Assembly (NCBI GenBank): GCA_029204225.1
Contig: CM055101.1
Location: 57,598,920 to 57,662,919, forward strand
Length of the DNA: 64,000 nt
Origin: Diphasiastrum complanatum
Lineage: Eukaryota > Streptophyta > Lycopodiopsida > Lycopodiales > Lycopodiaceae
Reading direction: 5' to 3'
In this document: positions 1 to 50,895 of the stretch, piece after piece
Numbering within the stretch: the stretch's first letter is position 1
Layout of the letters: each line of letters starts with the position of its first letter
Program-made: the position numbers and the translations under genes
The notes under the pieces: generated by a model
Told to the model about the DNA's origin: nothing
The model's database searches: none
Seen by the model: the letters and a program-made list of their open reading frames with translations, nothing else

Positions 1-286
1 AAAACCTATTGCTTATGTTCTGAAAACCTATGAAGTGAAAGATTTTTTCAAGTCTTGAAGGGCACATTCTAGAATCTGCATCTACATATCATATCTCATT
101 TAAACAATGTGTGCATTTGTGATTAGGTTGTGTTGTCACGCACATTGCCTCCTCACACCCAATGGAGTGTGACACCTCACCCAAATAGCTCCCCATGACG
201 ACTATTAGTATTTTATTCGCGTCAAAGAGGCGATGCAATGCTCTCAAACCAATATCCTTTTTGAAATCATTTGGGCATATACTTTC

Positions 287-551
287 TGTTAGAAATCAAT
301 GATAAACTTCATTGTTATTGTTTACGATGTACACTAATGTTGACAGCTGTTACCAGTTATGATTAGCCGTAGGCTAGTCTATTAGTCTATTCGTAGGTTT
401 TCTCTCTCTATCAAGGTTCAGGGTTTATATGTACATTTTATATTCAGTATGAAGTTAGTGTGATAGAGTGATATTGCGTGTTCTTTTTCCGTCTCCCTAC
501 TTGGTGATTGTTTATGGTGAATGCTTGATATTGCATATCTGATTATTGACA
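287..551 (+). repeat. Putative short copia LTR
   Basis: It starts TGTTAGAAATCAATG and ends GATTATTGACA, giving TG...CA ends and about 265 bp. It is followed directly by TGGTATCAGA at 552-561, a primer-binding site matching initiator-Met tRNA. No 3' partner LTR was found. The left end is inferred from the TG and the usual copia LTR start, so it may be off. Confidence 0.55.
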
Positions 552-561
552 TGGTATCAGA
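552..561 (+). other. Primer-binding site, Met-tRNA type
   Basis: TGGTATCAGA directly abuts the putative LTR end. It defines the plus-strand orientation of the first copia fragment. Confidence 0.6.
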
Positions 562-1085
562 TCTACGATAGTCCTGCGTGCTTGATCAGTGGATACAGCT
601 TGTCACAGGCTCCGCAACGAAGTGAGAAAGTCCTTCACAGGAGGTGAAAGCTTGGAGAGACAAAAACGGCTTCTTGATGTATTTTGCAGGTTTTGGAGCT
701 CACAGTTATTAGTGGGGAATGAAGACACAGTCCCGGAGGCATCGGAAAGGCTAGGGCAGCATCAAACAGGTTGAAAATCTGTTGTGTGGGAAAAGTTTTA
801 CAATATGTTTTTTAATCTTTGTGAAAAGTATCATTTCTCAGAGAGTTGTGCCAAGAAATCTCTCATTTGTTTGTTTGGGGTACTGCAAATCATACCAGAT
901 AGTGTCTAGTACTGCCATTTAGAGCCTTGAGGCTTCATAACTTTCACATTAGTGATATCTGTCTGTTTGAACGATCACTCGTTTTGAAATCTAAGCAAAG
1001 AGGAGGAGGCGTAGCCGCCGCGCCGAAGTAGGAAAACTGGAATATTCCCTCTGAAAGCTCTTATATTCTCTCTTTTTTATATTCG

Positions 1086-1330
1086 TACTAATATCGGATC
1101 CAAGCGCGCTAGCTGAAGAGAAACCCGAGCAGTCGTACATCTGCGCTTCAGTCTGACATCACATGTCCGTACCGATATTGAATCCAAGCGCATGAGCTAA
1201 AAGAGAATTCTTAGCAGTTGTACATCTGCGCTCCAGTCCGATATCGCTTGCTCCAATATCGGATCCACACGCACAAGTTAAAGAGGATCCTGAGCAGTCG
1301 TACTTCTGCGTTCCATTCCGATATCAGGTG
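1086..1330 (+). repeat. Three ~80-bp tandem units in copia leader
   Basis: Three degenerate units each carry an ATAT(C/T)G(G/A)ATCC core, then (A/C)(A/C)(G/A)CGC, an A-rich GAGAA stretch, GCAGT(C/T)GTAC and TCTGCG. They lie between the primer-binding site and the gag start, so they are 5' leader sequence. The same array is at about 24355-24600, and a diverged one at about 25630-25880. Function is unknown; dimerisation, enhancer or structural roles are possible. Confidence 0.8.
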
Positions 1331-1439
1331 TACAACCGAAAAAAAATTATTATACAGTTCTGTGGCGTGATAAAATTTGGAGACTAAGTTGTGTACTCAG
1401 ACTGAGCCATTTTTGTGATTCGGACTTGTCTATCCAGTA

Positions 1440-3004
1440 ATGGCAACTCTAAGCGAGAGTGTCCTTAATGAGTTAAGCAAATTGGAAGGAGCTGGCAACT
1501 ATGCAGTTTGGAATTCAAACTGAAGAACATTTTGATGGAAAAAAAGGCTATGGGAGATCGTGATAGTGAAGAGACAAGGCCATTGATTGAAGAAGATCAA
1601 TGGGCATTTGACAGGAGAAAACAGAAAGCACAGAATGTCATCAACTTATCAGTTAGAGATGCAATTATTCCCTACATTTCGGATTCAGAAGGACCAAAAG
1701 AAGCATAGGATACGTTGAAGGCATTGTTTGAGACCACAAACACATCTCGAGTGTTATTCCTGAAGACGAAGCTGCACACATTGCGGATGGATGATGGTGC
1801 AACTGTTGTTGATCACCTACTGAAAATCAAAGAGATTCGTGACCAATTAGCAACAGTTGGAGAGCGAGTGAGTCAAGCAAATTGGAAGGTGCCGGCAACT
1901 ATGCAGTTTAGAAATTCAAATTGAAGAGTATTTTGATGGAAAAGGAGCTGTGAGAGATCGTGACAGGTGAAGAGACATGATTGAAGAAGACCAGCGGGCA
2001 TTTGATAGGAGAAAACGGAAAGCCCAGAATGTCATCAACTTATCAGTTAAAGATGCAATTATTCCATATATTTCAGATTCAGAAGGGCCAAAAGAAGCGT
2101 GGGATACATTGAAGGCATTGTTTGAAACGACAAATACATCTCGAATATTGTTTCTGAAGACGAAGTTGCATACATTGCGGATGGATGATGGTGCAACTAT
2201 TGCCGATCACATGCTGAAGATCAAAGAGATCCGTGACCAATTAGCAGCAGTTGGAGAGTGAGTACAAGATTGTGAGATCGTGCAATTGACATTGAATAGT
2301 CTGAGTGAGTCACATCATATGTTTGTGACGAGTATAGCCACAAGAGAAAATCTTTCAATCTATGAAGAACTAGGTGAATTGTTTTTGCAAGAAGAGCAAC
2401 ATCAAGAGAACTTGAATCATTGTAACAGGAGCTATGATCAAGCTCTTACAGTTAGAGGACAAGGGGTTTGGCCGTGGAAAGTATCAATCGAGAGGAGGAA
2501 ACTCAAGTCGGAGATCATTTCAACAATTTCATGAGCAAGTCAATGATAGTTCGAATCGAGACAATTGGAATCAAGGTCGAGGTCAAGGACGCGGCTATTC
2601 AAGACAAAATAAACTTGGAAATTGTAGGTATTGCAACAAACCTGGCTACTAGGAGCGTGAATGCTTCAAGAAACAGAAGGAGATGGAACAAAGAAAAGAC
2701 AAAGGGCAAGTGGGAAATTATGCTGATCAACATCAAATTGATGATTATTAACATGAAAACAATTATACTGATCAACATCAATACGATGATGATCAATATG
2801 AAGATGATACAAGTGAGAGCTCAAAATTGTTCATTGCAGCATTAATGACAAGTGATGAAACCAACGATACCTGGTACATTGATAGTGGTGCATCCAAGCA
2901 CATGACTTCAAGGAAAGAGTGGTTTTCAGAACTCAAGGTGATAAAGTTGGACAAGCCGATGGCAAATTGCTATCTGTTAAAGGAGTTAGAGTGGTACCAG
3001 TGAA
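1440..3004 (+). pseudogene. Ty1/copia gag-protease fragment, broken
   Basis: A copia capsid reading frame starts at the ATG at 1440 (MATLSESVLNEL). It shows the UBN2-type gag region (KEAWDTLKALFET, RMDDGAT, IKEIRDQLA), then a CCHC zinc knuckle (CRYCNKPGY, with a TAG stop beside it) and the aspartic protease motif DSGAS near 2880. Lesions include a 1-bp loss after YAVW near 1510, a TAG for Trp at 1707-1709, a deletion at about 1868 that joins the first gag to the start of a second partial gag, and further stops. Protease sequence ends at about 3004, where the strand of the coding sequence reverses. It is dead as a gene. Confidence 0.9.
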
Positions 3005-4190
3005 GGCTTCTGATTTCTTCTTTATGAAATACACTACAGTCCTTCTGGAGAATTCGTCAATAAAGGTTATAAAATACTTGGCAGCCTTCAGCGAAGGATT
3101 TTTCATCGGGCCACAAATATCTGAATGTACAACATCTAGCAATCCTCTAGCAACATGTTGATGACTTGACTTAAATGGCTTTCTTGTCTTTTTACCAACT
3201 AGACAGTCTTGACAGACAGGTAGCTCGACTTTTTTGCGAGGATGGTCGATATCAAGAACAATAGATTGTCTAGACATTCGTTGTACAATAGCATAATTTA
3301 AATGACCAAGTCTATAATGCCAAAGTAAACCTTTATTTGAATGAATTGAAGTACTGAGAGCCTGACTAGAGGCAGAAAAGCAATGACTCAATTTATACAA
3401 GTATCCATGGCTCTTTCTGAGTGCTAGGATCTTGCTTGTCCTATCAACTACTTTACACTGATCACATTCGAATTCTACTCTGTGTCCTAGATCTATGATT
3501 CTACTTACAGAGAGTAGATTCGTAGATAAATTTGGTACATAAAGGACTTTAGAGAGTAGCTTAGATTGATCATTTGCAAAGCATAATCTTATAGTGCCTT
3601 CACCTTTAATAGCTTGTGTGCTATTGTCGCCAAGGTGAACGAATTTTTGGGTACTGTAAGGTGTATAGGACTTGAAATAGCCAATGAGGCGAGTGGCTCC
3701 GGAATCCAAGAATCAAGAGCTGTCGCCAGATGCTCCTTGATGGTTGGTCATGAAGGCATCATGATCCGCTTCTTGAATGGGCTGTGGAGCTTTTGTAGCT
3801 GCATTTGCCACTTGATTTGACTACCCTTTGTTGTTGTTCTTTGCTTGAAGTATGCGACAATCTTGTATTTTGTGGTTGTTTCATTTGCAGTATCTGCAAA
3901 ACAACTTCTTCTTTGTCTGCGAATTTGACTGCTACTTGTGCTAAGCTGGTTTTTGGTCTGGCTTTGATTGCTTCGGACCTTTCTTCTTCTTCTGCTTTGT
4001 CGTGCTCTTGTTGGTGTACAAGGCGTGAGAATCAGCTGAGGAACTCAAGGCTTCGTTCCTTCGCATGTCTTCCTGAAACAACATAGCAATGACTCTCAAA
4101 AGAGTCAATTCTAGATGAGTCGTAATGATCATCACCCAGCTGTCGTGGACATCACTACACGAAATGGGATGATGTTTCGCCGCCCCCCTA
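3005..4190 (-). pseudogene. Ty1/copia gag-protease-integrase fragment, opposite strand
   Basis: On the minus strand, from high to low coordinate: a gag C-terminus, a CCHC knuckle near 3850-3895 (CRYCK, stop, NNHKIQDC), protease MDSGATR at about 3709, the GAG-pre-integrase region (WHYRLGHLN, CQDCLVGKKTRKPF) and the integrase start with its first catalytic Asp (VVHSDICGP), ending at KKKSEAF. The last 258 codons (2933-3709) are open, but their final residues read into the plus-strand element. This is a different copia copy fused head to head to the fragment on its left. It has no RT or RNase H. Confidence 0.9.
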
Positions 4191-4480
4191 TGTTTTGATC
4201 CTAATACAACCCTGGCTTCGAAAAAAGTTGAAGACCAACTGCCAATGGCTCGAGTGTACTAGGCAATCCATGGACAACCAGATTTCAAGTGTGGACGGAC
4301 TAATTTTGGCTCACAGACGTCCACAAGTCATTCTTAACCGCCAAGGACAAGAAAAGTATAAAAAGACTGATCTTCATGGATGAAGTTATCAACTATATTA
4401 TCCAACAACGACGAGCAAAACGGGCACTCTACTAAACTCCGTAGTACCAAGAAACCGACACTACTTTAAGTCGGAGGCCC
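4191..4480 (+). other. Retroelement 3' internal remnant, no intact frame
   Basis: Short broken frames only. Its right end (GTCGGAGGCCC) lies directly before an LTR-like TGTTGGGAG start. The same junction occurs inverted at 48648-48670, so this is probably the polypurine tract and 3' internal end of another LTR element. Confidence 0.5.
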
Positions 4481-4739
4481 TGTTGGGAGTATTCCCGTGT
4501 AAATAAATAAAATAGTCGAAAAAAAATTAGAAATAGTTGCGAGGGTCATGGCATCCTGCATGCGTAAGCCCATGGCCTAATGAGCACTTGTAAATAATCA
4601 TTTTTGAATAAATTAGACTTTGGGCCATGTAATTAAAAATAAAAATAATATTAGAAGACCAAAGTTAAGTTAAACTTAAGTTTCTAAGTATTTATAATTA
4701 GTCAAAAGTCAAATGGTGGTAGGTGGAGTGTGTTTATTC
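4481..4739 (+). repeat. LTR fragment, TGTTGGGAG family
   Basis: Begins TGTTGGGAGTATTCCCGTG. It recurs at 28586-28806 (same strand) and 48388-48647 (inverted). The three copies agree through the AT-rich middle and then diverge. No matching second LTR or target duplication was seen here. Confidence 0.75.
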
Positions 4740-7700: not shown

Positions 7701-7769
7701 AGCTCTTTGCTTTATGTGGATACTGTTACTTGTGGATGTTGTTTATGGTTTCGATGGTAGTACAACTGA
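4740..7769. other. 3-kb stretch without supportable gene
   Basis: Only short frames without recognisable domains occur on either strand. A 31-bp tandem duplication (GAAGCCAGGCTCA...CCATCATAA) lies at about 4986-5047. Around 7540-7690 there is a TATATATAGG box, a GC-rich CCCGGGGGC, and TTTGTAATAAAGATG, which resemble an LTR promoter and polyadenylation region, so part may be an unassigned LTR. Nothing else could be identified. Confidence 0.5.
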
Positions 7770-9032
7770 GTTTACTTTTACACATAGAATCTTTACAGAA
7801 AGAATGTTCAGGCTCCAATGACGACTGCAACAATCAAAATACAAATATCAATAAATCCGTACTTATTAAAGCAATGCCGACTGCAACAATCCAAATTAAA
7901 GCAACAAAAACAAACGAGCAATACTCACTTATTCTCATATGGAATCAAATATTTTGCCACTGGATTGCATTCGATGAGATATACAGCCTTATCAAAATTG
8001 GCTTCTTTTGTCTTCATTGCTCCCATAAAAAATGGACTAACAACAAAAACTACACCATGAGAATCAGAACTAATACTATCCTACAAAAAGCATCCTTCGG
8101 CTTTTACTATTACATCTGTAATCTCTAGTGTTTTATCTTTAAGCTCGGCACAAAATTTGGGGCCTAATCTAAAGCTTCTATGTGAATCTGGAAGAAAGAA
8201 ATCAAAATAATTGCCAAGAAGATCAATTTTATTAGCTAAGTGGGCCTCGTACTGATTATAATGGTCAAAATAAAAAAAAAACTTGAGCGGGATCGTATGG
8301 AAATTTGACAACAAGATTATATACAGGAGCAGAAAGAGAAATAGATATAATATTTACAGATTTCTCGGTTATTTTGTCGAGCTCTTCTTGGGTAATCATC
8401 ACTTTTGGTGAAGAAACCTTCTGAGGAGCTGGACGAATAACATGAGGAGGAGAGAGAGATTCTTGGTCTAAATCAGATTCTCCAACATCTGATTCAAACC
8501 TCATGCGAGGTCTCTTCATAGGGATAACTCAAGGAGGAAGAGAAACAACTGGCTTTCGAGATCCAACTTTCTTGGTTTTAGGCTGTCTCTTTGTCCTCCT
8601 AGAGGTGGTCGACAAATTTGTTCTATTCAGAGGCAAGTCTCTAGAGGTGTTGGCGTTATCCACATGTAGACCAGAATAACGATCCCAAAGTCTTCTGAGA
8701 ATGATGGGAATCTGTTGGCATGATGGTGACACGCTTACCATGCATTCCCAAAAGACAGGTATCCTCAAAAAACTGGGCCAAAAAGTCTTCTATAGCACCT
8801 TGTAAGGCCTGCATGGCTGTCACGGCAAAACGAACATCTAGCCCAAGTGACAGAGTGACATTCTTGATAGATCGGCTGAAAGGAGCCCTAGGGATCAACA
8901 GTTCAGTTGATCTCTTATCTCCCTCAGCCAGACCTACTTTCTACCACGTCTACGGCCAGTACCAGAGGGAACACAGGCATGGGATAGCTGTACAATGGTT
9001 ATGACACGGGCAGTAGATTTGGTCCTAGCCAT
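7770..9032 (-). pseudogene. H3L copy 1: histone H3/CENH3-like fold with long C-terminal extension
   Basis: Reading down from the ATG at 9032, the product starts MARTKSTAR, the histone H3 tail start. The tail is short and basic (GRRRGRK), then a TAG stop, then VWLREIR, then a frameshift. The histone fold follows at about 8905-8710: STELLIPRAPF, LDVRFAVTAMQALQ, FLAQFFEDT and HGKRVTIMP. The LIPxAPF pattern is CENH3-like, while loop 1 has canonical H3 length. After a second frameshift a basic linker and a Ser/Pro/Glu-rich segment (SLSPPHVIRPAPQKV) lead to an unrecognised domain (LGNYFDFFLPDSHRSF, RLGPKFCAELKDKT). Normal H3 ends soon after the fold, so the extension is unusual. Related copies lie at 14985-16920 (-), 47870-48195 (+) and 49195-50895 (-). 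It faces gene B across a shared promoter. The stop and shifts make this copy non-functional. Confidence 0.75.
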
Positions 9033-9985
9033 CATTCTTAGAATAAAAATAAATAAACTAGAAAAAAAAAGTTTGAATCCATGCGCAGGGAATGAAAACA
9101 AAAGAATTTGCGATCAAAAGACGCTTGAGATCGATACCAGAACTGAATATCGGTTTCGAGCACAAGATAGATAGAGAATATGAGAATTGCACTTGAAAGT
9201 GATATTGGAATCACAACAGTATCAGTCTCGAGCGCACGGTGAGAAGGTGGAGTATTTTGCGAAGAGAGAGCGCGCTTGAGAGCAATATTGGGAGCGAAAA
9301 CCAAAAATTCTACGAAAAAAATAAAAATTCCAAGGGTGTATATACAGGAGATTTTCACATGTGTGCAAAAAATGGATGATGACACGTGTCGGCATCTAAC
9401 TGGTCCACATTGATTGTTCGTACTGATAATTATGACTCGATTATGAGGCCACATGGGTCGGGACACGTGCACGAATCAGATTTTGACATGTGTCATTTGG
9501 CACGTGATAGTCGTCAGATCAATCATTGTCTATACGACGAAATATTAATGACCAATCATGTGACAACACGTGTCCTTCTAAAACTCTTCCACACGTGCAA
9601 ATTTTTTTTATAAATAGGTCATTTCTGACGTGGATTTTCACGCAAATTTTTGATTTCTTATCCGGATATCAATTTCAAGTGCGCCCATTCCACTGTCTAC
9701 GTTCCGTTGACTATCTTGCACCTAGAACCAATACTGCATAGTCTGGTATCGCATTCAAGCGCGTCTTACATCTTTTTTTTTTTTGATCTTTGTACACGTG
9801 CTCGGATCCGATACCCTAGGTTCTTATATCTCTTTATGCTCCCAATTCCCTTTCATTTGTAAGATTTTATGTAGATCTTAGGAAGTGGATGACCGGAGCG
9901 CACATTGCCTTGAGATTCTTCTCTGACCTACATTTTGCGCTTGAGTGCAATATTGGAAATTTCACATTTGTATTTTTTGCTCAGA
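9033..9985. promoter_or_regulatory. Divergent promoter with five G-boxes
   Basis: A minus-strand TATA-like box (TGTATATACA, 9337-9346) points to H3L, and a plus-strand TATAAATA (9609-9616) points to gene B. Between them lie five perfect CACGTG G-boxes at 9383, 9464, 9501, 9568 and 9593; a sixth is at 9795. The presumed 5' UTRs on both sides are built of degenerate units containing ATAT(C/T)G and (T/C)CAAG(C/T)GC. G-boxes bind plant bZIP and bHLH factors; that they act here is inference. Confidence 0.65.
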
Positions 9986-10412
9986 ATGTCTAATTTCGAT
10001 TCTAGTTTGCTTTCTGTTTTTCATGAATTTGGTATTAGTGATAATTTAGAGAATTTCAAATCCTTTCTTTTCTCTTTTTTTTTATTTATTCCTTCTGTTA
10101 TTGAGGATCCTGGTGTGGAAGCATTTTTTGAGATTTATCTCAGATTTAAGTCTCTGATCAGTACTCTCTTATTTAGATTTTAGAATAAGGACATGATTCA
10201 ATATCAGGACCTGGTGGCACTTGACAAGCATAGCTATAAAGCTAAGCTTGACAGAATGTTCACCAAGTTACATAATGATTTCAAGTCTGTAGATGAGTGC
10301 CCAATTCACAATAAAAAATATAGATTTGTTGATTTTTAGTCTGCATTTGTTTTTTTTCTTTTGTTAAATATTTTTGACGATTCGAAAGCTGGCCCTTCCA
10401 CTTCTAAAACCG
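9986..10412 (+). pseudogene. Gene B copy 1, unknown protein
   Basis: Starts at the ATG at 9986 (MSNFDSSLLSVFHEFGI). Conserved stretches shared with the copy at 57259-57969 include PGVEAFFEIYLRFK, NKDMIQYQDLVALDKH, YKAKLDRMFTKLHNDFKS and VDECPIHNKK. Two in-frame TAG codons (near 10180 and 10337) stand where the other copy has CAA. The frame is cut at about 10405-10413 by LTR sequence, so the acidic C-terminal half is missing. No family was recognised. It is probably soluble and charged, with no signal peptide or clear membrane segment. Its pairing with H3L across one promoter suggests linked function within the same element, but that is inference. Confidence 0.6.
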
Positions 10413-12050: not shown

Positions 12051-12528
12051 CATTAGAGAAACTTAGGGCCCGAAGAGGGCCTTTGAAAAAGATGTTTTTT
12101 CATTTTTTATTTTATTTTCGTTGTCATGTGGAACAATTGAAACGTTGAAATCAGGGTTCTACGTAATGTAGAATTTTCCAAACATAAATAAAATAAAAAC
12201 TTTTAAAATATATTGTTGTTTCATCGGGCAACAAGTGAAAATGCTATTGATTGATGAGGTCTGCCCTTCCAGCTCATCACTACCCGAAGAGACCCAAAAA
12301 TATTGAAAATGAATATGACAGATGGTTGAGATGAGAAAATCGATGTACCATTAATGTATATGCATTGTCAAATCATGGTTAATAGGGTTAACCAGAGTTA
12401 ATTCGTGGCGCCAAATAGATCAGTGTTTCAAATTTAAGCCAACACATTTTCTCAGATTCATGGCTTTTTGTCTACGCAAATTTTTAGATTCATAGCTCAT
12501 TGTTTCAGATTTTTGCATGCACATTACG

Positions 12529-14984: not shown

Positions 14985-16920
14985 ACAACCTGATTGTAAG
15001 AATCTATATTGATATCAATAAAAACTCCATAAACGGGTTGTTTACCTATAAAATGATTGTATCTTTTTTTTTTTGTATCTCTATTTAGAAATGGATTACT
15101 ATTCAGTAAATTTTTCTATATATTTAGTATCACTATTAAGAACTAATAAGGGAACAGTTTCTTCTTCTATAATCTCGTCTTCCTCTATTTCGGGAAGGAC
15201 TTCTAGGCCTTTTAAGACAAGAAGCCTCTCTGCTATAATATCGCCTTCCTCTGTATTGGGAAGGACTTCTATTCTTTTTTTTATCATGTATAATAATATC
15301 TGCATCCTGAGAAAATTGAGAGGCTATCAAGGTAGGAGCAGCTTGCTTTTGAGGGCCCTTGATTTCAGGTGCAATGCTTACACCATTCTGTACATAGGTT
15401 CCGATCAATTCTTGCCAAAATCTATATACATCGTCAGTAGTATACAACTCAAGAGTGAATTGTCATCACAAAACATGTGATACAGCAAATTGCAAACAAT
15501 GATAGTAAAAAAATATGAATCACAATGAAAAAAATTACAAATGAACAGAATATTATCTTTTCAATATCTAAATCCACTTGTAAATTATACCACTCAAAAA
15601 AAAACTTTGTATTATACCGGACAAACTATGCACAACTGACAGCGTCCATTTGCTGTACACACTGCATATATTGAACAAAAATTAGTAATATTATGATAAA
15701 AAATTTATTTATGCTATGATGATAGATTTAAACTAAAAAAAAATACATGCATATCAGAGATAAATAGAATATACCTTGAGAGATTTTATGGTTATCTCTC
15801 CAATTGAAGTCGCCTTTGTCGGTATTTTCCGCACGACATCATGAAGTAGAAAATCAAATTCTCTATGTGTATTACAACTGAGTTTACTTTTACACATAGA
15901 AAATTTGATGCTCCCTCCTTATTTATCTTTACAGAAAGAATGTTCAGGCTCCAATGCCGACTGCAACAATCAAAATACAAATATCAATAAATCCTTACTT
16001 AATAAAGCAATGTCGGCTGCAACAATCCAAATTAAAGCAACAATTCAACGAGCAATCCTTACTTATTCTCATATGGAATCAAATAAAATTTTGACACTGG
16101 ATTGCATTCGATGAGATATACAGCCTTCTCAAAATTGGCTTATTTTGCCTTCATCGCTCCCATAAAAAATGGACTAACAACAAAAACTACACCATGAGAA
16201 TCGGAACTAATACTATCCTACAAAAAGCATCCTTCGGCTTCTACTATTACATCTGTAGTCTCTGGTGTTTTATCTTTAAGCTCGGCACAAAATTTGGGAC
16301 CTAATCTAAAGCTTCTATGTGAATCTGGAAGAAAGAAATCAAAATAATTGCCGAGAAGATCAATTTTATTAGCTAAGTAAGCCTCGTACTGGTTATAATG
16401 GTCAGAATAAAAAAAATTTGAGCAGGATCGTATGGAATTCTGACAAAAAGATTATGTACAGGAGTAGAAAGAGAAGTAGATACAATATTTACAGATTTCT
16501 CGATTATTTTGTCGAGCTCCTCTTGGGTACTCATCACTTTAGGTGAAGAAACCTTCTGAGGAGCTGGACGAATAACACGAGGAGGAGAGAGTGATTCTCG
16601 GTCTGAATCAAATTCTCCAGCATCTGATTCAGAGCTCATGCGAGGTCTCTTGGCAGGGATAACTCAAGGAAGAAGAGAAACACCTGGCCTTCGAAATCCA
16701 GCTTTTTTGGTTTCAGGCTACTTCTTTTTCCTCCTAGAAGTAGTCAGCAAGTTTGTTTCATTTAGAGGCAAGTCTCTTGAGGTGCTCGCGTTATCCACAT
16801 GCAGACCATAATAACGATCCCGAAGTCTTATGAGAATGACGAAAATTTGTTGGCATGATGGTGACATGCTTACCATGCATTGCCAAAAGATAGGTATCCT
16901 CAGAAAACTGGGCCAAAAAG
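14985..16920 (-). pseudogene. H3L copy 2, truncated
   Basis: Minus strand from 16920 down. The histone fold begins mid-way (FLAQFSEDT, HGKHVTIMP); its N-terminal half and start are deleted, joining the fold directly to gene B promoter DNA at about 16920. Then follow RDRYYGLHVDNASTSRDL, the Ser/Pro/Glu segment (SPPRVIRPAPQKVSSPKV, open 16639-16373) and LGNYFDFFLPDSHRSF. Further distal blocks shared with 49195-50895 include the region at 15447-15136 (DDVYRFWQELIGTYVQNGV). AT-rich gaps between conserved blocks may be introns. Frameshifts and stops are present. Confidence 0.65.
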
Positions 16921-17085: not shown

Positions 17086-17141
17086 AAAATAAAAAAACAT
17101 CTTTTTCAAAGGCCCTCTTTGGCCTCTAAGTTTCTCTAATG

Positions 17142-20583: not shown

Positions 20584-21770
20584 TACAAGTTGTGCCCCAA
20601 AAATCATCATAGTTGTCTTCTATAAACCACCTCCAATGGTTCATACTTTGATTGCTCCACTTCCATCATCCATTGACAGACTTCCAAACTTTTCCATCTT
20701 TACAAAATCAGACTTGTAAAATGTCTTTTAAAATTTGATTTTTGAGGCTTTATGATTGGTCCAATTCTTGGTTGAACTTGTTAGTGTGGGAACCTATTGT
20801 CGTGAGGGAGGGAGATAGCCTTAAGTTCCAACCATGCTTAAACTTTTTTCATATTTGATTTCACAAATTTAAATCACAATTTACATCACCAAGAATGGCA
20901 CCTTTTTTGCTAACGATCTTGGTATACATGTGCCCATATAAATATGGTATGCTACATTGAAAGATAACCTATATGACATGAATACACTAGATTGGAGAGT
21001 TGCCTAAACCCTAAACCCCTTTGCAACTATGTATATGATCTCTTGGATACAACCTAAATTATGTGTATGGAGAGCCCTAGTAGAGAAACCCACACGGATA
21101 GTTATGTTGTATCCATCACTTACGTGACAAGTTTTGTCCATAACTACGAGGGGGAACCATTTTTGGTTCTCTAGCTTTTCATTTTGACAAATTGTGTTTT
21201 TTTCCAGCCTTGCATGATTTACTTCCTCCCTCTTCTTGAAAAAAGAGGACATATGAGAGAGAATGTATGATGTTGTGGAGAAAAAATAATTCTTGCTTTT
21301 CTAGTGGGCCACATGTGCCCTAAAATTCTAATGGCCTACAATTGGCGGTTTTCTATTTTGAAAACTAGAGGGGCTCGTCTAGATTCCGGAAAAATCTAGA
21401 GAGAATGATTTAGAATAGTTGAGAATATAAATTATTCTTGGAATCTTCTAGAGAGGAGGATTTGTTAAAGAGAGAGAAGAGGAGGCAAGAGGAGGATTTG
21501 AGAGAGAGAGAGAGAGATTCACTCATTTTAACAAATGTATGAACACCACACTCATCATATTAAAAACAAACTTATCCCATTTGCCGCCACACGAAGATCA
21601 TTGCCTCCCCAATGTCACAAGGCTAATGTCATACATGGACGGTGCATAGGCTTATTGTGAGATATGGACCCTAGGAACATGTTTGCATCTATCTCACATA
21701 GTGCCCTTCCTCTTATCACTCACGAATGTGACAGAGAGAGCCTTGGACCCACGTTGGCTTCCTTATCTCA
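20584..21770. other. Non-coding stretch, one telo-box
   Basis: No recognised gene. A minus-strand frame at 21004-21252 is open for 82 codons but matches nothing recognised. AAACCCTAAACCCC at 21006-21019 is a double telo-box-like motif. 21480-21520 is purine-rich (GAGAGAGA). Confidence 0.45.
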
Positions 21771-22151
21771 TCTCACCTGCCAAAGGGGGACCCTAAACGG
21801 CCTTCATGAACGTCCCGTTTCATGACTCGAGAGTCTTCGACTCCTCTACATTCATCTCTTCTCTCTACTTTTCAAGAGCTTTCTTCCAACCCTTCTACTC
21901 TCTCCTCTCCTCTCCTCTCGCACTTTACGACAATACATCCTCTGTATATATATTTTCCTCATCCTTCCATATCTTGCATAATGTCAGTGAGTTCGTGACG
22001 AGTTATCTACAACTACGCGGTCATAGTAATTGATATAATCTCGACATTGGGGATTCTCAATTCATCACCTCTCGCCATTGAGACAATCTTAGCAATCGCA
22101 GACAGCAATTCATTTCTGAGAAGGAAGTTATTTTACCTCTTTTAGCTGGAT
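21771..22151 (+). promoter_or_regulatory. sHSP copy A promoter and 5' UTR
   Basis: TATATATAT at 21945-21953 lies ~200 bp before the start position, the same spacing as in copy B. The sequence is clearly homologous to copy B's upstream region back to about 21771. Runs of GAA/TTC occur (e.g. GAGAGTCTTCGAC) but no perfect alternating heat-shock element was found. Confidence 0.6.
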
Positions 22152-22830
22152 ACGGCTTTGACCCCATTCTTCTTTGGCCGAGATCAAAGTATTTTTGATC
22201 CCTTGGATAGAATTCTAGAGCCTTTTGACAGATTTCCTCTGTGGGACAATGCACCTTCTCGACAGTTCGCCCAGGATGTGAGTGCCATTGCCAGTACTCG
22301 AGTAGACTGGCTCGAAACCCCGGATGCTCATATTTTCAAAGCCGATCTACCAGGTAATTCATTGTTCCTGATCTCAGCATATGTCTCTAAGACTTTATGC
22401 TCACAATTTCGAATAATCTTCCTCAGTAATCTGCAAGCCAGAAAATCTTCATGCTCGGGCTCTCTTTATTGTACTTATTGTTGTTCTCTTTCTCTGATTC
22501 ATCGGATCTGTATTCTAAATCTTTTGACTGTGTCTTGATTTGTTGCTATTCTCAATCTCAGGGTTGAAAAAGGAAGAAATAAAGGTTCAGGTGGAAGATG
22601 GACGTACGTTACAGATAAGCGGGGAACGCAAGAAAGAGGAGGTGGAGAAGACGGACAAATGGCATCGGGTGGAGCGTAGGCAGGGCAGTTTCCTGCGACG
22701 CATTCGCTTACCAGAGAATGCGAAAGTGGAGGAAGTGAAGGCGAAGGTTGAGGATGGCGTCCTCACCGTCACTGTTCCCAAAATCGAGAAACCTAAGCAC
22801 GAAGAGAAGCCCATCGAAATCTCCAGCTAA
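22152..22830 (+). CDS. Class I small heat shock protein, copy A, start codon ACG (possible pseudogene)
   Basis: Two exons, 22152-22353 and 22562-22830, with a GT-AG intron of 208 bp (22354-22561); the total is 156 codons plus TAA. The product is an ATP-independent chaperone of the cytosolic HSP20 family: N-terminal arm ([17 protein letters not shown]), alpha-crystallin domain from about residue 53 ([46 protein letters not shown]) and a C-terminal IEI motif for oligomerisation (PIEISS). The codon aligned with copy B's ATG reads ACG at 22152-22154; an in-frame TAG lies 9 bp upstream and there is no in-frame ATG in either exon. Everything else is intact. It is either recently dead or uses a non-AUG start. 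Confidence 0.85.
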
Positions 22831-23269
22831 ATTGCAACAACATATTGCATGCCAAATAAAAGAGAACTTCAGATGTTTGAACAACATACGTGTAGCTCAA
22901 TTTTACTGATTCGCTTTCCAAGCACTAAGAATGAAACTATGTCCATTATGAAGCCCTTGAATGACTCTGTATCAAGTTTTTGCTACTAGTAGTAATATAT
23001 AACTTAGCCTATCAAAGGTTTTTATGATAAATGCGAGTGATGATTTTGGTTTCTTTTTTACCATCAGGTGTATTATCTCTGAGATTGTAGATGTCTAGTG
23101 TGCCTTGTTAGTTCTGTGGACGTGTGTGTTTTGTTGTCTACTCGCAGATATTGCTCTAGAAAATTCTGTCTTAAAATATGTTGATTAGGTTTTCCAAATT
23201 CGTTGGCACCTAATTATATGCAATGCAGGCTACATTACTCTCCAAATAGCACTCCAAATGCTATTTTTA
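22831..23269 (+). other. sHSP copy A 3' flank
   Basis: It is homologous to the downstream region of copy B (for example CAACATACGT(G/C)TAGCTCAATTTT). AATAAA at 22856-22861 may be the polyadenylation signal. No gene. Confidence 0.6.
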
Positions 23270-23555
23270 AAAACCTATTGCTTATGTTCTGAAAACCTAT
23301 GAAGTGAAAGATTTTTTCAAGTCTTGAAGGGCACATTCTAGAATCTGCATCTACATATCATATCTCATTTAAACAATGTGTGCATTTGTGATTAGGTTGT
23401 GTTGTCACGCACATTGCCTCCTCACACCCAATGGAGTGTGACACCTCACCCAAATAGCTCCCCATGACGACTATTAGTATTTTATTCGCGTCAAAGAGGC
23501 GATGCAATGCTCTCAAACCAATATCCTTTTTGAAATCATTTGGGCATATACTTTC

Positions 23556-23820
23556 TGTTAGAAATCAATGATAAACTTCATTGTTATTGTTTACGATGTA
23601 CACTAATGTTGACAGCTGTTACCAGTTATGATTAGCCGTAGGCTAGTCTATTAGTCTATTCGTAGGTTTTCTCTCTCTATCAAGGTTCAGGGTTTATATG
23701 TACATTTTATATTCAGTATGAAGTTAGTGTGATAGAGTGATATTGCGTGTTCTTTTTCCGTCTCCCTACTTGGTGATTGTTTATGGTGAATGCTTGATAT
23801 TGCATATCTGATTATTGACA
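23556..23820 (+). repeat. Putative short copia LTR, copy B
   Basis: Equivalent to 287-551, with the primer-binding site TGGTATCAGA at 23821-23830. Confidence 0.55.
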
Positions 23821-24354
23821 TGGTATCAGATCTACGATAGTCCTGCGTGCTTGATCAGTGGATACAGCTTGTCACAGGCTCCGCAACGAAGTGAGAAAGT
23901 CCTTCACAGGAGGTGAAAGCTTGGAGAGACAAAAACGGCTTCTTGATGTATTTTGCAGGTTTTGGAGCTCACAGTTATTAGTGGGGAATGAAGACACAGT
24001 CCCGGAGGCATCGGAAAGGCTAGGGCAGCATCAAACAGGTTGAAAATCTGTTGTGTGGGAAAAGTTTTACAATATGTTTTTTAATCTTTGTGAAAAGTAT
24101 CATTTCTCAGAGAGTTGTGCCAAGAAATCTCTCATTTGTTTGTTTGGGGTACTGCAAATCATACCAGATAGTGTCTAGTACTGCCATTTAGAGCCTTGAG
24201 GCTTCATAACTTTCACATTAGTGATATCTGTCTGTTTGAACGATCACTCGTTTTGAAATCTAAGCAAAGAGGAGGAGGCGTAGCCGCCGCGCCGAAGTAG
24301 GAAAACTGGAATATTCCCTCTGAAAGCTCTTATATTCTCTCTTTTTTATATTCG

Positions 24355-24600
24355 TACTAATATCGGATCCAAGCGCGCTAGCTGAAGGGAAACCCGAGCA
24401 GTCGTACATCTGCGCTTCAGTCTGATATTGCATGTCCGTACCGATATTGAATCCAAGCGCATGAGCTAAAAGAGAATTCTTAGCAGTTGTACATCTGCGC
24501 TCCAGTCCGATATCGCTTGTTCCAATATTGGATCCACACGCACAAGTTAAAGAGGATCCTGAGCAGTCGTACTTCTGCGTTCCATTCCGATATCAGGTGT
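24355..24600 (+). repeat. Three tandem leader units, copy B
   Basis: Equivalent to 1086-1330, with a few substitutions (for example CAATATTGGATCC for CAATATCGGATCC). Confidence 0.8.
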
Positions 24601-24708
24601 ACAACCGAAAAAAAATTATTATACAGTTCTGTGGCGTGATAAAATTTGGAGACTAAGTTGTGTACTCAGACTGAGCCATTTTTGTGATTCGGACTTGTCT
24701 ATCCAGTA

Positions 24709-25403
24709 ATGGCAACTCTAAGCGAGAGTGTCCTTAATGAGTTAAGCAAATTGGAAGGAGCTGGCAACTATGCAGTTTGGAATTCAAACTGAAGAACATT
24801 TTGATGGAAAAAGAGGCTATGGGAGATCGTGACAGTGAAGAGACAAGGCCATTGATTGAAGAAGATCAACGGGCATTTGACAGGAGAAAACAGAAAGCAC
24901 AGAATGTCATCAACTTATCAGTTAGAGATGCAATTATTCCCTACATTTCGGATTCAGAAGGACCAAAAGAAGCATAGGATACGTTGAAGGCATTGTTTGA
25001 GACCACAAACACATCTCGAGTGTTATTCTTGAAGACGAAGCTGCACACATTGCGGATGGATGATGGTGCAACTGTTGTTGATCACCTACTGAAGATCAAA
25101 GAGATTCGTGACCAATTAGCAACAGTTGGAGAGCGAGTACAGGATCGCGAGATCATGCAGTTGACATTGAATAGTTTGAGTGGATGTTTGTGACAAGTAT
25201 AGCCACACGGGAAAATCTTCCAACCTATGAAGAGTTAGGTGGATTGCTTTTGCAGGAAGAACAACGTCAAGAGAACTTGAGTCATCGCAACAGGGGATTT
25301 GATCAAGCTCTTGCAGTCAAGGGACGTGGTGGTAGATTTGGTCATGGAAGACACCAATCAAGAGGTGGAAACTCAAATCGTGGATCATTCCAACAATTTC
25401 AAG
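24709..25403 (+). pseudogene. Ty1/copia gag, first of two in tandem
   Basis: ATG at 24709. Same lesions as copy A (1-bp loss after YAVW, TAG at 24976-24978), but it continues further: QLTLNSL, FVTSIATRENLPTYEELGGLLLQEEQ, then a Gly/Arg-rich tail (GRGGRFGHGRHQSRGGNSNRG). It ends without a zinc knuckle where leader-like sequence restarts at about 25404. A small deletion near 25180 shifts the frame. Confidence 0.85.
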
Positions 25404-25944
25404 AAAAATCTCTCATTTGTCTGTTTGGAGTACCACAAATCACATTAGATAGTGTCTAGTACTGTCATTCAGAGTTAGGAAACTTCATACTTTTTTATCT
25501 CTGTCTTTTGAACGATCACACATTTTGAAATCTTTGCAAAGAGGAGGTGGTGTAGCCGCCTTGCCGAAGTGGAGAATCTAGAATATTCTCTCTGAAAGTT
25601 CTTATATTCTCTCTACTTTTCATTTTGTCCGTACCAATATCGGATCAACGCGCCAGAAGTAAAGAAAACTAAGAGCAGTCGTACATTCACACGTCATACT
25701 GATATCACATATCAATACCAATATTGGATCGACGCGCCAGAGGTAAAGAAAATCCAAAGCAGTCGTCCATCTGCGCATCATACCGATATCGCATATTTGT
25801 ACCAATATCGGATCCACGCACGCGAGCGAAAGAGAATCGCGAGTAGTCGTGCACCCGCGCATCGTACCGATATCAGGTGTCCAACCAAAAATTTACAGTT
25901 CTATGGTGTGATAAATTTTGTGAGCCAGACTCATCTATCTAGTA
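25404..25944 (+). repeat. Second copia leader with diverged tandem units
   Basis: Homologous to 24120-24708 at lower identity. Three units at about 25630-25880 carry CAATATCGGATCAACGCGCC and variants. It shows that two related copia 5' regions lie in tandem. Confidence 0.8.
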
Positions 25945-28295: not shown

Positions 28296-28585
28296 TGTTT
28301 TGATCCTAATACAACCCTGGCTTCGAAAAAAGTTGAAGACCAACTGCCAATGGCTCGAGTGTACTAGGCAATCCATGGACAACCAGATTTCAAGTGTGGA
28401 CGGACTAATTTTGGCTCACAGACGTCCACAAGTCATTCTTAACCGCCAAGGACAAGAAAAGTATAAAAAGACTGATCTTCATGGATGAAGTTATCAACTA
28501 TATTATCCAACAACGACGAGCAAAACGGGCACTCTACTAAACTCCATAGTACCAAGAAACCGACACTACTTTAAGTCGGAGGCCC

Positions 28586-44915: not shown

Positions 44916-45321
44916 CATTAGAGAAAATATGAACCCAAAGAGGGCCCTATAAGAAATGCCATGTAGGAGAGAGAAAATTAACTATAAAGTAATTATAATA
45001 TCATTTTCTAACTTCTTTACGCATCTGCCCGCACTACTTTCCATGTAAATGAATGCACCTTAGTTTAGTCACATCAAACTTCACTGGTGTTTAACCCCAG
45101 TTAAAATATAATTTTTCAAATGCTGAAATATTCCCTCCCAATAGTTGGGAACACTCTAAAATTTGAATTAGGAGTGACATTTCTGGAAAAAACCTACACC
45201 ATCTCTATCTCCAGGGTAAAAAACAAGTGTTAAGCGACATCTCTATCTCTAGCAGAGTCGTTAGCGCCATCTCCAACTTTGTTATTGTCATTGTGTTTTT
45301 TGTTACTATACTACTGTACTG
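44916..45321 (+). other. Terminus and leader of the transposase-like element
   Basis: Begins CATTAGAGAAAATATGAAC then CCAAAGAGGGCC, the same pattern and spacing as the inverted-repeat ends of 12051-17141. The following GGGCCCTATAAGAAATGCCA is also found at about 58663. No gene before 45322. Confidence 0.6.
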
Positions 45322-47869
45322 ATGACAAAGTTTTATCATCTTCATGTGGATCTGTCACCAGAATATGCTCCGCTTAGGACGAGAAATTCAAAGCAACCCA
45401 AATTGTCAACTTCTGATATGGTCCGATACAGGGAGGAAAAGCTAAAACATGTAGATTTATGGTCATCAGGAACATTGTATCCTATTGATCCATGTTCATT
45501 GCAACATCCAGATTTTCATTCGGTGAGTCAGTTAATAATTTATACGTGTCATGGTAAAAATGGCCTTTTGGGTTACTGTGAGAATTTGATGCTCTATGGG
45601 AATGCATATTCAATGCAAAAAATACATTATTTGGATTTATTTGGAAGAGAAATCAAGGAAAACATCAAAGGAGTGCGAAGAAAAATTCACAAAGATGAAG
45701 ACTTATTTGGATGAAAATGAGATGCTCAAGGAGGAGATCCAAAGGTTGAAATTTTCTTTGCATCATTATACAACTAGTAATGATGAGATAAAAATTGCAT
45801 TTCAATCCATGCGTATCTCATATTTGTCTCTTGTTAAAGATATGGATGTGCTCAACAAAAAGGTCTGAAGCAACAAGAGAAAAAGACTGGTAAACAAGGA
45901 TATATGTGATCTATCATCCAGAGGAGGTCATACAAAAAGACGAATCTGAGTTATAACTTATTTGCTATTGAATATTGCTTGAACTTTTTGATTTATTCAT
46001 AATCACTAATTTTGTTATTTATTCATTTCAACTTTCTGTTGATTTGCTTATTATATACTGCTGTGAATACTATGAGTGTCCTAATTTCTACTGACATTTT
46101 CATGAACATTATGTTTACAATGCAGATCAACATTTGTTGTTGAAGACCATTTGGCCGATGAGATTTCAATTGGAAACTCACTAGGCTCTATCTTGACTTC
46201 TAAATCTATAAAATCAATGTTAAATAATAACAAAATGAAAAAGATTAAGGCTTCAGTTACTGATAGCATTATGGATAAAGTTAGAAAAATATTAGACACT
46301 ACATTGCTTCAGGGGGCATGTGACTTTTCTAGCATCAGTAGGGAAGCATATGCAACAATGTTTAAGATGATAAAGGAGGCATTTGCACAGGTAAATATTA
46401 AAAATCCCACGACCATTTCATCTTTAAATTATGGTATGCAAACAATAGTTGGTAATCCATCTCATATCAATGAAGTGTATTGCTCCAAAGGAAAAAGTCT
46501 AGTCTATAACAATTCCAGCAATTTATTTATTGACATTAATCAGTTATTAACATTCATCATAAATTTTTACGGTATTACAAATGAGAATGTCAATAACAAG
46601 TTGATAGTTGTTCTCAAGTTAGATGAGTCTAAAATTATAAAAGGACAAAAAATGGAAAGAGTTAGTCTCACGATCATGAATGGAGCACTTTCAAATTCAG
46701 AAGACTCAGAAGTCCTCAATTTCAGTGTTCAATCAGAAAATGATATTTGGTGGTTGGCAGCATTTCAGGTTTAGCAGTTCCTTCACATAATAAATAGGGA
46801 TAATCATTTGAATATGGATTTCATATCTAAAATGTTCTCTGTGTTAATATTATGAGTCTAGTCACGTTTTTGTATTCTCTTATAGGTGCTGAAAGAAGAC
46901 CATAACATTCTCTCATGGATATTTAATATAACATCATATCCTGCCACCATAAAAAATCACATGGAGGGAGTTTCACTCAATATTCCTGGAATTGGCACTT
47001 TCAACATTGAATGGCATTTAGCAGGAGATCTGAAAACATTAAAATGTATGTTCAATGTATCTCATGGCACTAACTCTAAACACCCTTGTTTGTACTGCAT
47101 GAAAATAGCAAAAGACATGACAAGGAGTACAGGAATATCAAGAGATTGAGAAGATCCTAATTGGAAACCTGTACTACCAATTCCTCTACGAAATGTTCAT
47201 ATCTATACATTGCATGCAAAAGTGCGTATTATAGAAAAAATAATATATCTTCACATCTTGTTTGCATGGAATTCCGAGCCAGAGGCCTCTGCGAAAAAAG
47301 CTTTTTCCAGATTAGAGGATGTGTTGTCCAAAGCAGGCTTACATAAAGGCCACGTTAAAATAAAAAAAATATGACAAGCTATCAAGTAAAATAGCAAATA
47401 TTCCATGCAAGCCAAGCATTGGAGGATCTAAAGCTTGAAGATTTTTATCAAATTATTCTGGCACACAATCTAAGGTTCAATACACGGCTTGGAAAGAAAT
47501 TATTGCAGCAACTCTCTACTCGTATACACAAAGTAGAAGTTTGGAAAAAGTTAGACAACATGGTGAAATACTTGAGAAAAAATAAATTTTCAAATACTAA
47601 TGTACAAATGATACAGAAAACAACCAATGAATTTGTTGATGCAGTTCAAAGTGCACGGGGTGTTGTCATATAACACATTATATGGTAAGATTTTGATTTT
47701 ACACTACGATAGACATATATGTGCAATTAAATTAGATACTTTTGGTACTGATTTAGATTATATTTTTATGACATGCAGCACATATTACGACATCATTCGA
47801 CATTCTTTGCAAGAAATAGTGGAAGTCTTAGCATATGGTCATCGCAAGGAATGGAAAAATCTCATTGGC
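45322..47869 (+). pseudogene. Multi-exon transposase-like gene, broken, family not recognised
   Basis: The first block from the ATG at 45322 ends in SSGTLYPIDPCSLQHPDF and CHGKNGLLGYCENLMLYGNA. A predicted coiled coil follows (45640-45868: MLKEEIQRLKFSLHHY, SNKRKRLVNKDICDLSS). After a probable intron ending CAATGCAG at about 46124, a 207-codon frame runs 46151-46774 (VVLKLDESKIIKGQKMER). A clear GT-AG intron (about 46769-46886) leads to WHLAGDLKTLKCMF and a CLYC pair, then NVHIYTLHAKVRIIEKIIYLHI and KPSIGGSKA. The GDLK plus CxxC arrangement recalls RNase H-fold transposases, but no catalytic triad was proved. An in-frame TGA at 47147 and frameshifts show decay. Paralogous pieces lie at 58439-59490. 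Confidence 0.5.
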
Positions 47870-48195
47870 AACTGAATTGTTGATCCCTAGAGCTCCTTTT
47901 GGCCGATCTGTTCGGATTGTCACTCTGTCACTTGGGCTAAATGTTCATTTTGCCGTGACAACCATCCTGGCCTTATAGGGTGCTGCAGAAGATTTTATGT
48001 CCCAATATTTGAGAATACTTGTCTTTTGGTAGTGCATGGCAAGCGTGTCACCATCATGCCAAAGGATTTCGTCATTCTCAAAATGCTTCGGGACAAAAAT
48101 TCTGGTGTACATGGTGATAATGCCAGCACCTCCAGAGACCTGCACTGGATAGAACCAACGTGCCTACTACCTCTAGGAGGAAGAGAAAGCGGTAT
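47870..48195 (+). pseudogene. H3L copy 4, histone-fold fragment
   Basis: Directly follows the transposase-like gene, on the same strand. It reads LLIPRAPFGRSVRIVTLSLG, then FAVTTILAL, a TAG, and after a shift HGKRVTIMPKDFVILKMLRD and VHGDNASTSRDL. The KRVTIMPKD segment is closer to canonical H3 than the other copies. Start and C-terminal extension are absent. Confidence 0.75.
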
Positions 48196-48663: not shown

Positions 48664-49190
48664 TTAGTGTCGTAGTGTAGGTGGCATTGGAATTACCATG
48701 AGGGTTGGTTGGGGTTGTTGTTCCATATGGCGCTGGCATACTTTGAGGATGTTCTTTGTCTGTGCCAACTTGTGGATTGCGCTCTGTCGTTATTTGTCGA
48801 ACTCTGCTTGGTAGTTGTCGAAGGTTTGACTGTAGACCTTCACCTGTTGCGTGAGTAGATCCATCTCGGCTTGGCTGAGAGGTCTGTTGGCAGGTGTTAG
48901 TTGAGCTACCATGTGTGTGTGGTCTTTTCTGCTTGTAGGGCCGTCAGCTCCGCTCCTAGGCGTTCGCTCCTAGGCGTTGATTTTCAGTTTCAAATATTGT
49001 TAGTTGGGCCTGGAGCAGGGCTAGGCTTTGGAATACTTGGTGCTGGATCTCCTAGACTTTTAATTGTTTGTTGTAGACTTGGAGAGGTTCTTGATGTACC
49101 TCTGGAGATTGTCTTCGTGATTTTTCAACTTTAGCACCTCGTTTTGCTCTGCTAGCTCATGTTGTTAAGCTATCTGGTGTCTTAGACTAT
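48664..49190 (-). pseudogene. 3'-terminal ORF of an LTR element, Gln-rich coiled coil
   Basis: Minus strand: VAQLTPANRPLSQAEMDLL, VKVYSQTFDNYQAEFDK, a TAA, then AIHKLAQTKNILKVCQRHM, ending at the stop at 48664-48666, 17 bp before the LTR. Upstream sequence is broken. The position just before the polypurine tract marks it as the last coding segment of the element. Function is unknown; such plant elements can carry an extra coiled-coil ORF. Confidence 0.45.
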
Positions 49191-49194
49191 GCAC

Positions 49195-50895
49195 ACCACC
49201 TGATTGTAAGAATTTATTGTGATATCAATAAAAAAAAACCCATAAACGGGTTGTTTACATGTAAAATGATTGTATCGTTTTTTTTTATGTCTCTCTATTT
49301 ACAAATAGATCTCTATTCAATTAATTTTTCTATATTTTCTATATCAGTATTAGGAATTGATATGGCAACAGCTCCGTCTATAATCTCGGCCTCCTCTGTT
49401 TTGGGAAGAGCCTCAATGCCTTTTAAGGCAAGAGGAATATCTGCTATAAAATTGCTTTTCTCTGTATTAGGAAGGACTTTTATTTACTTTTTATCATATA
49501 AAATAAGATCTGCATCCTGAGCAACCTGAAAGGCTGTTAAGATAGGAGCAGCTTTCTTTTGAGGGCCCTTGATTCAGGTGCAACGCTTACACCATACTGG
49601 GCATAGGTTCTGATCAACTCTTGCCGAAATCTATATACATTATCAAGAGTATACGGCTCAAGAGTGAACTGTTATCACAAAACACGAGAATCAGCAAATT
49701 ACAAACAATGATAGTAAAAAAAATATGAATTAGATTGAAATGAACTACAAATGAACAGAATATTACCTTTTCGATACCTACATCCACTTGTAAATTATAC
49801 CATTCAAAAAATAGCTTTGTATTGTACAGGACGAACCATGCACAACTAAATGCATCTTTTTGTTGTGCACACTACATATATAGAACAAAAATGAGTAATA
49901 TTATGATAGAAATTTTATTTATGCTATGATGATACATTTGAATTAGAAAAGAAATACATGCATATCAGAGATAAATTGAATATACCTTGAGAGATTTAAT
50001 GGTTATCTCTCCAATTGAAGTTGTCGTTGTCCGTATTTCCCGAACGACATCATGAAGTAGAGAATCAAATTCTCTATGTGTATTTGCAGTTGAGTTTAGT
50101 TTTACACATAAAAAATTTGATACTCCCTCCTTATTTATCTTTACAAAAAGAATGTTCAGGCTCCAATGTTGACTGCAAGAACCAAAATACAAATATGAAA
50201 AAATTCATATTTATGAAAAAATTCCGTACTTATTAAAGCAATAAAGCATGCAACAATCCAGATTAAAGCAACAAAAACAAAAGAGCAATCCTTACTTATT
50301 TTCATATGGAATCAAATAGAATTTTGCCATAGGACTGCACTCGATAAAATAGACAGCCTTCTCAAAATTGCCTTCTTTCGTCTTTACCGCTCCCATGAAA
50401 AATGGACTAACAACAAAAACTGTACCATGGAAATCGAAACTAATACTATTCTGCAAAAAAGAAACTCCAGCCTCTACTATTACATCTGAGATTTCTGAGA
50501 TCTTATCTTTTAGCTCGACACAAAATTTGGGACCTAATCTAAAGCTTCTACGTGTATCTGGAAAAAAAAAATAAAAAAAGTTGTCGAGAACAATTTTGTT
50601 AACTAGGTAGGTCTCCTATTGATTATAATGGCCAGAATAAAAAAAACCTAATTCTCACAAAAAGATTGTGTACAGGAGCAGAAACAGAAGTGGAAATAAT
50701 CAGCACTTTTGGTGATCAGCACTTGGTGATGAAAGCTGTTGAGGAGCTGGACGAATAACAGGAGGATGAAGGGGTGAAGATTCTCAATTTGAGTCAGATT
50801 CTCTAGCATCTGACTTAGAGCTCAGGAAGACACAGGGTCTCTTGGCCAGGATACATCTAGGAGGAAGGAAAGCAGCTGGCCTTCGTGATCCAGGA
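49195..50895 (-). pseudogene. H3L copy 3, C-terminal region only
   Basis: Collinear with 14985-16700. Minus strand: the Ser/Pro-rich segment is much decayed near 50740-50860, then FFMGAVKTKEGNFEKAVYFI and ECSPMAKFYLIPYENK (about 50300-50420), then AT-rich interruptions that may be introns, and the distal block at about 49500-49680. The histone fold is missing; sequence changes to a copia zinc-knuckle fragment at about 50896. Confidence 0.6.

Follow-up and report, generated by a model that had tools for sequence, protein, structure and literature searches.

The DNA analysed here, a stretch of 64 kb from Diphasiastrum complanatum that we call the window, carries dead copies of a high-copy, transposon-like repeat family that encodes a histone H3 variant fused to a long C-terminal domain (CTD). 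That the family is real and of this nature is well supported. As our best explanation, to which we give slightly less than even weight, we propose a decayed element gene for an H3 fusion without K9, possibly anti-silencing. Its identity part we regard as highly probable; the mechanism part, which we infer from features of the gene and its surroundings, is possible but doubtful.

The H3-CTD gene in the window

The initial annotation had read, at 7770-9032 of the window, the motifs of an H3 fold in the right order, followed by a basic linker, a Ser/Pro/Glu segment and an unrecognised domain, and this reading was borne out by matches to Pfam PF00125 and to H3 in the PDB. On the minus strand of copy A, MARTKSTAR starts at 9032, VWLREIR follows in the same frame after one stop, and STELLIPRAPF...HGKRVTIMP occupies 8910-8659. 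The proposed search with histone profiles gave significant matches: PF00125 (Histone) with E = 1.4e-17 for the raw frame and 8.7e-18 for the joined reading, which at 65.2 bits (cut-off 26.4) contains the core histone fold, and PDB histone H3 with E = 6.7e-15 for the fold of copy A and 1.2e-18 for a ten-copy profile. The histone resemblance of copy A is not due to chance. The frame is broken by three in-frame stops and three frameshifts, and the apparent end of the fold after TIMP turned out to be a frameshift artefact, the alpha-3/C helix continuing (MPKDFVILKMLRDK) in another frame and in copy C, which reads the C-terminal helices of H3 past TIMP in frame. A bacterial promoter and terminator scan of 9000-9700 found promoters at chance level and one terminator-like site versus 0.4 expected. 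The features of locus A are:

7757-9032, minus strand: locus A
7757..10408, minus strand: span of element fragment A, which takes in the noncoding region upstream and the beginning of gene 2
7928..9032, minus strand: broken exon 1 of the H3-CTD gene in copy A, from the reading of frames
8937..9032, minus strand: short H3-like N tail of copy A (MARTKSTARVITIVQ...), K4 present, position 9 not K
8659..8910, minus strand: H3 histone fold of copy A, main frame (frameshift after TIMPT), by Pfam PF00125 and PDB H3
8532..8657, minus strand: basic linker of copy A
8268..8528, minus strand: Ser/Pro/Glu-rich stretch of copy A, no Pfam match
7928..8272, minus strand: CTD of copy A, exon 1 part, family not recognised
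9121..9957, both strands: motif array GCGCTTGANNNCRATAYYRGA (9121+, 9189+, 9272+, 9742-, 9937+)

The four copies in 43 kb counted in the initial annotation are three loci (A, B and C), of which C has been cut in two by an inversion:

15869-16920, minus strand: locus B
16062..16919, minus strand: copy B exon 1, from the middle of the H3 fold to the CTD, broken, with a 5' deletion relative to A
15775..15876, minus strand: copy B exon 2 (...REFDFLLHDVV...), coding match
15557..15655, minus strand: copy B exon 3 (QQMDAVSCA...), coding match
15316..15450, minus strand: copy B exon 4, first part, then an acidic tail, coding match
12052..12094, minus strand: 3' terminal inverted repeat of the element, belonging either to B or to a fragment next to it
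17098..17140, plus strand: 3'-type terminal inverted repeat beside B
47868-48192 (plus) and 50137-50893 (minus): locus C, split by inversion
44917..47870, plus strand: 5' portion of the element in copy C, with its terminal inverted repeat and the gene 1 region (ORF 46106-46774)
47868..48192, plus strand: H3 fold half of copy C, inverted versus its CTD half
49188..50893, minus strand: end of the linker, CTD and exons 2-4 of copy C

A +1 insertion and a TAG are common to A and B and absent from C; since A and B share these two disabling changes, they probably descend from one copy that was already broken.

Further observations concern the neighbourhood. Locus A is found again at 92-99% identity in copies spread over C10:56.86-57.61 Mb. 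Positions 1-4701 and 23270-28806 of the window form a direct segmental duplication (two blocks, 99.4-99.5% identical, 23-24 kb apart). An apparently intact open frame of 1,254 codons at 38200-41964 (minus strand) encodes a polyprotein, presumably copia-type. An inverted pair (21736-23116 and 53875-52485, 80% identical) holds gene fragments at 22146-22538 (plus) and 53122-53580 (minus), which we take to be HSP20-like.

Relationship to H3 and CENH3

In 21 tails, near-duplicates included, K4 is always present, and position 9 is A (20 tails) or V (1 tail) and never K. The tail is shortened and departs from the near-canonical pattern with K4, K9 and K27; drift could also produce the loss of K9. Across ten copies the fold shares 31-38 of 76-77 residues (41-50%) with canonical H3. 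R83, K115, V117 and T118 are kept in all ten, H113 in nine and R116 in six.

The initial annotation had suggested an H3/CENH3-like histone-variant gene, captured and diversified by a mobile element, possibly to act on chromatin or centromeres. The data support a diverged H3 that truly continues into a C-terminal extension and lies in repeated DNA whose ends resemble those of a transposon; they do not support the CENH3 identity. R63 is replaced by P (LIPxAPF) in nine of the ten fold rows, and this change alone is CENH3-like. In CENH3 loop 1 is longer than in canonical H3; here it has the canonical length in 10/10 rows. Identity to Arabidopsis CENH3 was 30-34 of 77 residues, lower than to canonical H3 in nine of ten rows. 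Neither a CENH3 identity nor a centromere function of the H3-CTD protein is supported.

Exons and decay of the gene

The majority columns of 16 non-duplicate copies keep an open frame of 375 codons in exon 1. Individual copies retain long parts of it: X25 reads 216 codons without a stop from the tail to the Ser/Pro/Glu stretch, its own start codon being lost, and X15 reads 186 codons without a stop from the H3 fold up to where the CTD begins. The gene is likely spliced from about four exons. Most intron borders are conserved (donor 2 GT in 8/8 rows, acceptor 3 AG in 8/8), others imperfectly so (donor 3 GT in 4/8, with AT in the rest; acceptor 4 AG in 4/6); the start of exon 2 is uncertain to the base.

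All of the 16 non-duplicate copies examined are broken, a count that leaves out C, contains A and B as not fully independent members and reaches slightly into the intron at the 3' border, stops in exon 1 being visible for each copy. Exons and introns have diverged alike (0.08-0.13, six copies), and within the repeat the three codon positions have diverged almost equally (0.127/0.113/0.120 for positions 1/2/3, 16 copies). From these three findings the sampled repeat is decaying neutrally, and little or no selection now acts within it.

The repeat family and its element

In the genome searched (1.745 Gb in 5,176 contigs) a query with the H3 part gave 1,529 candidates, of which the best 40 were scored, and the sequence is therefore a high-copy repeat; ten of these 40 matches lie within C10:56.86-57.61 Mb at 92-100% identity, the window's own included, and thirty on many contigs at 85-87%. 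For the 5' end of the element the best 40 of 1,630 candidates were scored. The copies scored (the best 40 per query) are scattered over many chromosomes. Twenty regions of 9 kb, some of them near-duplicates of one another, were taken by the H3-part query. All twenty contain the N tail, H3 and the Ser/Pro/Glu stretch, and 17 the CTD, the regions having been chosen for their H3 matches; exons 2 and 3 are present in 11, and exon 2 only in two more.

The boundaries of the element fall at the same base across copies (5' CATTAGAGAAAATATGGGCCC..., 3' ...GGGCTCTAAGTTTCTCTAATG), the outermost C/G being absent in a few. The ends are inverted repeats of approximately 31 bp, each predicted to form a hairpin. 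In X12 (C23), which has both ends and spans 11.1 kb with an insertion, CATTAGAGAAA... stands at both termini with 24 of 31 positions alike, as in a terminal inverted repeat; among 5000 random internal pairs three scored as high anywhere in 70 bp. No target-site duplication was seen at X12, the one copy with both ends. L024 had been considered as a two-3'-ended element in which to look for such a duplication and was rejected, its flanks being an inverted duplication. L016 and L024 (C7) are a head-to-head palindrome of two element halves, the flanks of L024 also being inverted copies, and L045 (C16) is a deletion derivative in which the 5' end of the element is joined to part of the CTD, without H3.

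Two further genes lie upstream of the H3 gene. Gene 1 shares its strand; gene 2 lies on the other strand and diverges from H3. Several open stretches are present in both. None of their ORFs matched a Pfam family above cut-off (best E 1.1), hence no recognised transposase, and a six-frame Pfam scan of parts of X12 gave nothing above cut-off except Histone. Neither a hAT dimerisation or DUF659 domain nor an 8-bp target-site duplication, the marks of hAT elements, was present in the element parts scanned. A Helitron, first suggested by the CTAA|T at the 3' end, was rejected because the ends are inverted repeats, and a viral origin because viral_contigs yielded no relative and our Pfam scans no viral domain. 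We tentatively describe the element as a high-copy DNA element of roughly 9 kb, bounded by terminal inverted repeats and containing at least three genes.

An intact relative

A genome scan with PF00125, in which 150 of 6,325 candidates were scored, gave 153 matches. Thirteen had 163.7-165 bits, among them L051, which reads as a canonical, presumably plant-like H3; those listed among the 140 others had approximately 82-110 bits. Seven loci were examined: L051, one of the H3-CTD kind (L052) and five of a second family. The latter (L048, L049, L050, L053 and L054) is also high-copy and H3-like, with a polyproline N part and a fold that contains FLIPRAPFVRLVKEI and mostly ends in RRERN; no CTD was seen in these five loci.

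One intact relative was found, L052, and no intact copy among the 16 repeat copies examined. L052 has an uninterrupted frame of 337 amino acids with the H3-linker-CTD layout of the repeat (Pfam histone match 95.8 bits, E = 3e-27). Its tail, MDRRKQTRRD, keeps K4 and has D at position 9, counted without gaps from the first M. L052 is 33% identical to L019 over 332 amino acids and 57% identical to L014 over 116; blastn of L052 versus element copies gave no match. In the tree that had been proposed for placing the fold, L052 and the repeat form a clade of their own, apart from canonical H3, CENH3 and the second family (96/92), in a small, midpoint-rooted tree with a single CENH3 on a long branch.

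Between L052 and L019 the codon positions differ by 48/32/73 in 114 codons of H3 and linker, with synonymous sites saturated, and less unevenly, by 64/50/78 in 118 codons, in the CTD, which is less conserved than the fold. Set against the neutral pattern inside the repeat, this skew suggests that between the repeat and L052 the protein, at least in its H3 part, has long been under purifying selection. L052, taken as a piece of 1.7 kb, may be a host gene rather than a transposon copy.

The C-terminal domain

No Pfam family matched the CTD, either in the repeat copies or in L052. The phrogs profiles gave nothing for the H3 part or the CTD; in ncbifam the CTD was without a match, and the H3 part had only weak ones to unrelated families (E 0.14 and 0.17). 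The CTD could be imagined as a protease of the Ulp1/SENP type, which would make the whole protein a deSUMOylase tethered to chromatin, comparable to KIU of VANDAL elements. The A-type copies have the motif order H...QQxDxxSC, and one hhalign pairing aligns the Q and the C, but with a probability of 2.3%, and one of 60 shuffles scored higher. L052 lacks the aligned H, and no SC motif was seen in its downstream frames; the CTD has no match to Pfam C48; and a scan of the genome for PF02902, in which 150 of 520 candidates were scored, found three places, none with the CTD of the element. A protease-type identity is thus not supported, and we regard it as very improbable. The best of the three places, L033, is a SENP8-like gene of the Ulp1 family with an open frame of 257 codons.

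Motif arrays before the H3 gene

The noncoding region before the H3 gene contains a 21-bp motif, first picked by eye on copy A. It occurs 17 times in the window versus 0.30 expected, a number reached by none of 100 shuffles; this count is partly circular because the motif was chosen on copy A, its recurrence and pitch elsewhere being less so. In five copies with flanks (82.5 kb, up to 4 mismatches) 32 of 41 hits fall in a segment of 1.65 kb that leads up to and includes the H3 start. Forward motifs occupy -818 to -568 and reverse motifs -271 to -99; in addition, one forward motif lies between -214 and -121 in five of six copies, window copy A included, and one reverse motif between -925 and -784, likewise in five of six. 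Same-strand neighbours are 78-83 bp apart in 16 of 18 spacings (six copies), the other two being 68 and 109 bp. More arrays with variant letters are found at 1087-1272, 24356-24541 and 57998-58233 of the window and stem perhaps from related elements.

Possible function and rival explanations

In our reading the gene encoded a diverged H3 variant with a short tail, K4 kept, K9 lost and the nucleosome fold kept, followed by a linker and a new CTD. The product would pair with host H4 and enter, or sit on, the element's own chromatin, and the CTD or a partner might guide it to the motif arrays of 80-bp pitch beside the H3-CTD promoter. Since its tail lacks K9 and the region of K27, the product could resist H3K9-based silencing and would then be an anti-silencing factor. 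Expression, pairing with H4, targeting and anti-silencing are steps that we infer for the protein; what the sequences show is the fold, the fusion, probable introns, ends like terminal inverted repeats, the copy number, the neutral decay inside the repeat, the purifying selection relative to L052, the lack of K9 and the motif arrays. The VANC anti-silencing proteins are reported to target noncoding tandem repeats (PMC10398659). In its most specific form, as a plant transposon's own silencing-proof histone, a K9-less H3 with a targeting domain whose nucleosomes over the divergent-promoter arrays would block H3K9me2-based silencing, the proposal is distinctly unlikely.

The gene could instead be a passive passenger, a host H3-variant gene captured by transduplication and multiplied, with a protein useless to the element. 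For this there is a precedent in Pseudocercospora, where 784 H3-like copies in a hAT element are reported to be inactivated except for the original (PMC6710886). All 16 sampled copies here are likewise broken and neutral, L052 could be the host source gene, and the deletion derivative L045 has lost H3. A recent capture would, however, resemble host H3, and the fold of L025 agrees at 47 of 89 residues with the canonical H3 of the host and at 55 with L052; moreover, the H3 gene stands behind a motif-array region shared with gene 2, as an integral gene of the element would. We consider passive carriage somewhat unlikely. The broken state of the 16 copies would also fit the null explanation of the initial annotation, an ordinary H3 pseudogene whose 3' flank is open by chance, but this fails on the majority frame of 375 codons, on real copies that read uninterrupted over the junctions, on the same fusion in the intact 337-amino-acid L052, and on a fold only 41-50% identical to canonical H3; it is barely credible.

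Quite improbable, in our view, is a role in integration or architecture, in which the H3-CTD protein would wrap the element DNA or tether it to chosen chromatin, e.g. centromeres, during transposition. Several DNA-contact residues are kept in the fold, R63P is CENH3-like, and the motif pitch of approximately 80 bp is close to the length of one nucleosome gyre; but the best 40 copies scored per query are scattered over many chromosomes, the tree shows no grouping with CENH3, and the motifs adjoin the promoter rather than the ends of the element.

Comparison with known systems

With CENH3/CENP-A the H3 part of the element shares the H3 fold and the LIPxAPF motif; it differs by having no loop-1 insertion, a long CTD, a high copy number and a tree branch of its own.

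H3-like genes are known as captured cargo of fungal DNA transposons, and those in fungal hAT elements are the closest precedent. The hAT transposons of Pyrenophora tritici-repentis carry H3L, a diverged gene of H3 type that belongs neither to H3 proper nor to CenH3, and resemble the repeat described here in being bounded by terminal inverted repeats and in having an ORF of unknown function and an altered histone tail (PMC3538342). Unlike the repeat here, for which no transposase was recognised, they encode a transposase with a recognisable hAT domain; they are fungal and present in 26 near-identical, mostly intact copies, and the excerpted text mentions no fused domain (PMC3538342). The hAT repeat of Pseudocercospora and relatives is similar in its size of about 9.5 kb and its hundreds of decayed H3-like copies; as described in the excerpts, its H3 differs in being intronless and mostly truncated, with no other domains found, and the repeat in having a demonstrated hAT domain and 8-bp target-site duplication and in decaying by RIP (PMC6710886).

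VANDAL elements (VANC/KIU), likened here by description only, are also multi-gene DNA elements of plants with an accessory gene and noncoding tandem motifs; they have a MULE transposase, and VANC is not described as a histone in the portions of the sources at hand (PMC13317346, PMC10398659). Among the open-access papers listed by our searches there was no plant case of a transposon-borne H3-like gene and no H3-CTD fusion. New here, compared with the fungal cargo genes, is an H3 in a plant genome that is fused to a novel domain, adjoins a patterned noncoding region and has an intact relative conserved as a protein, which makes it testable whether a mobile element can produce its own histone to alter its chromatin.
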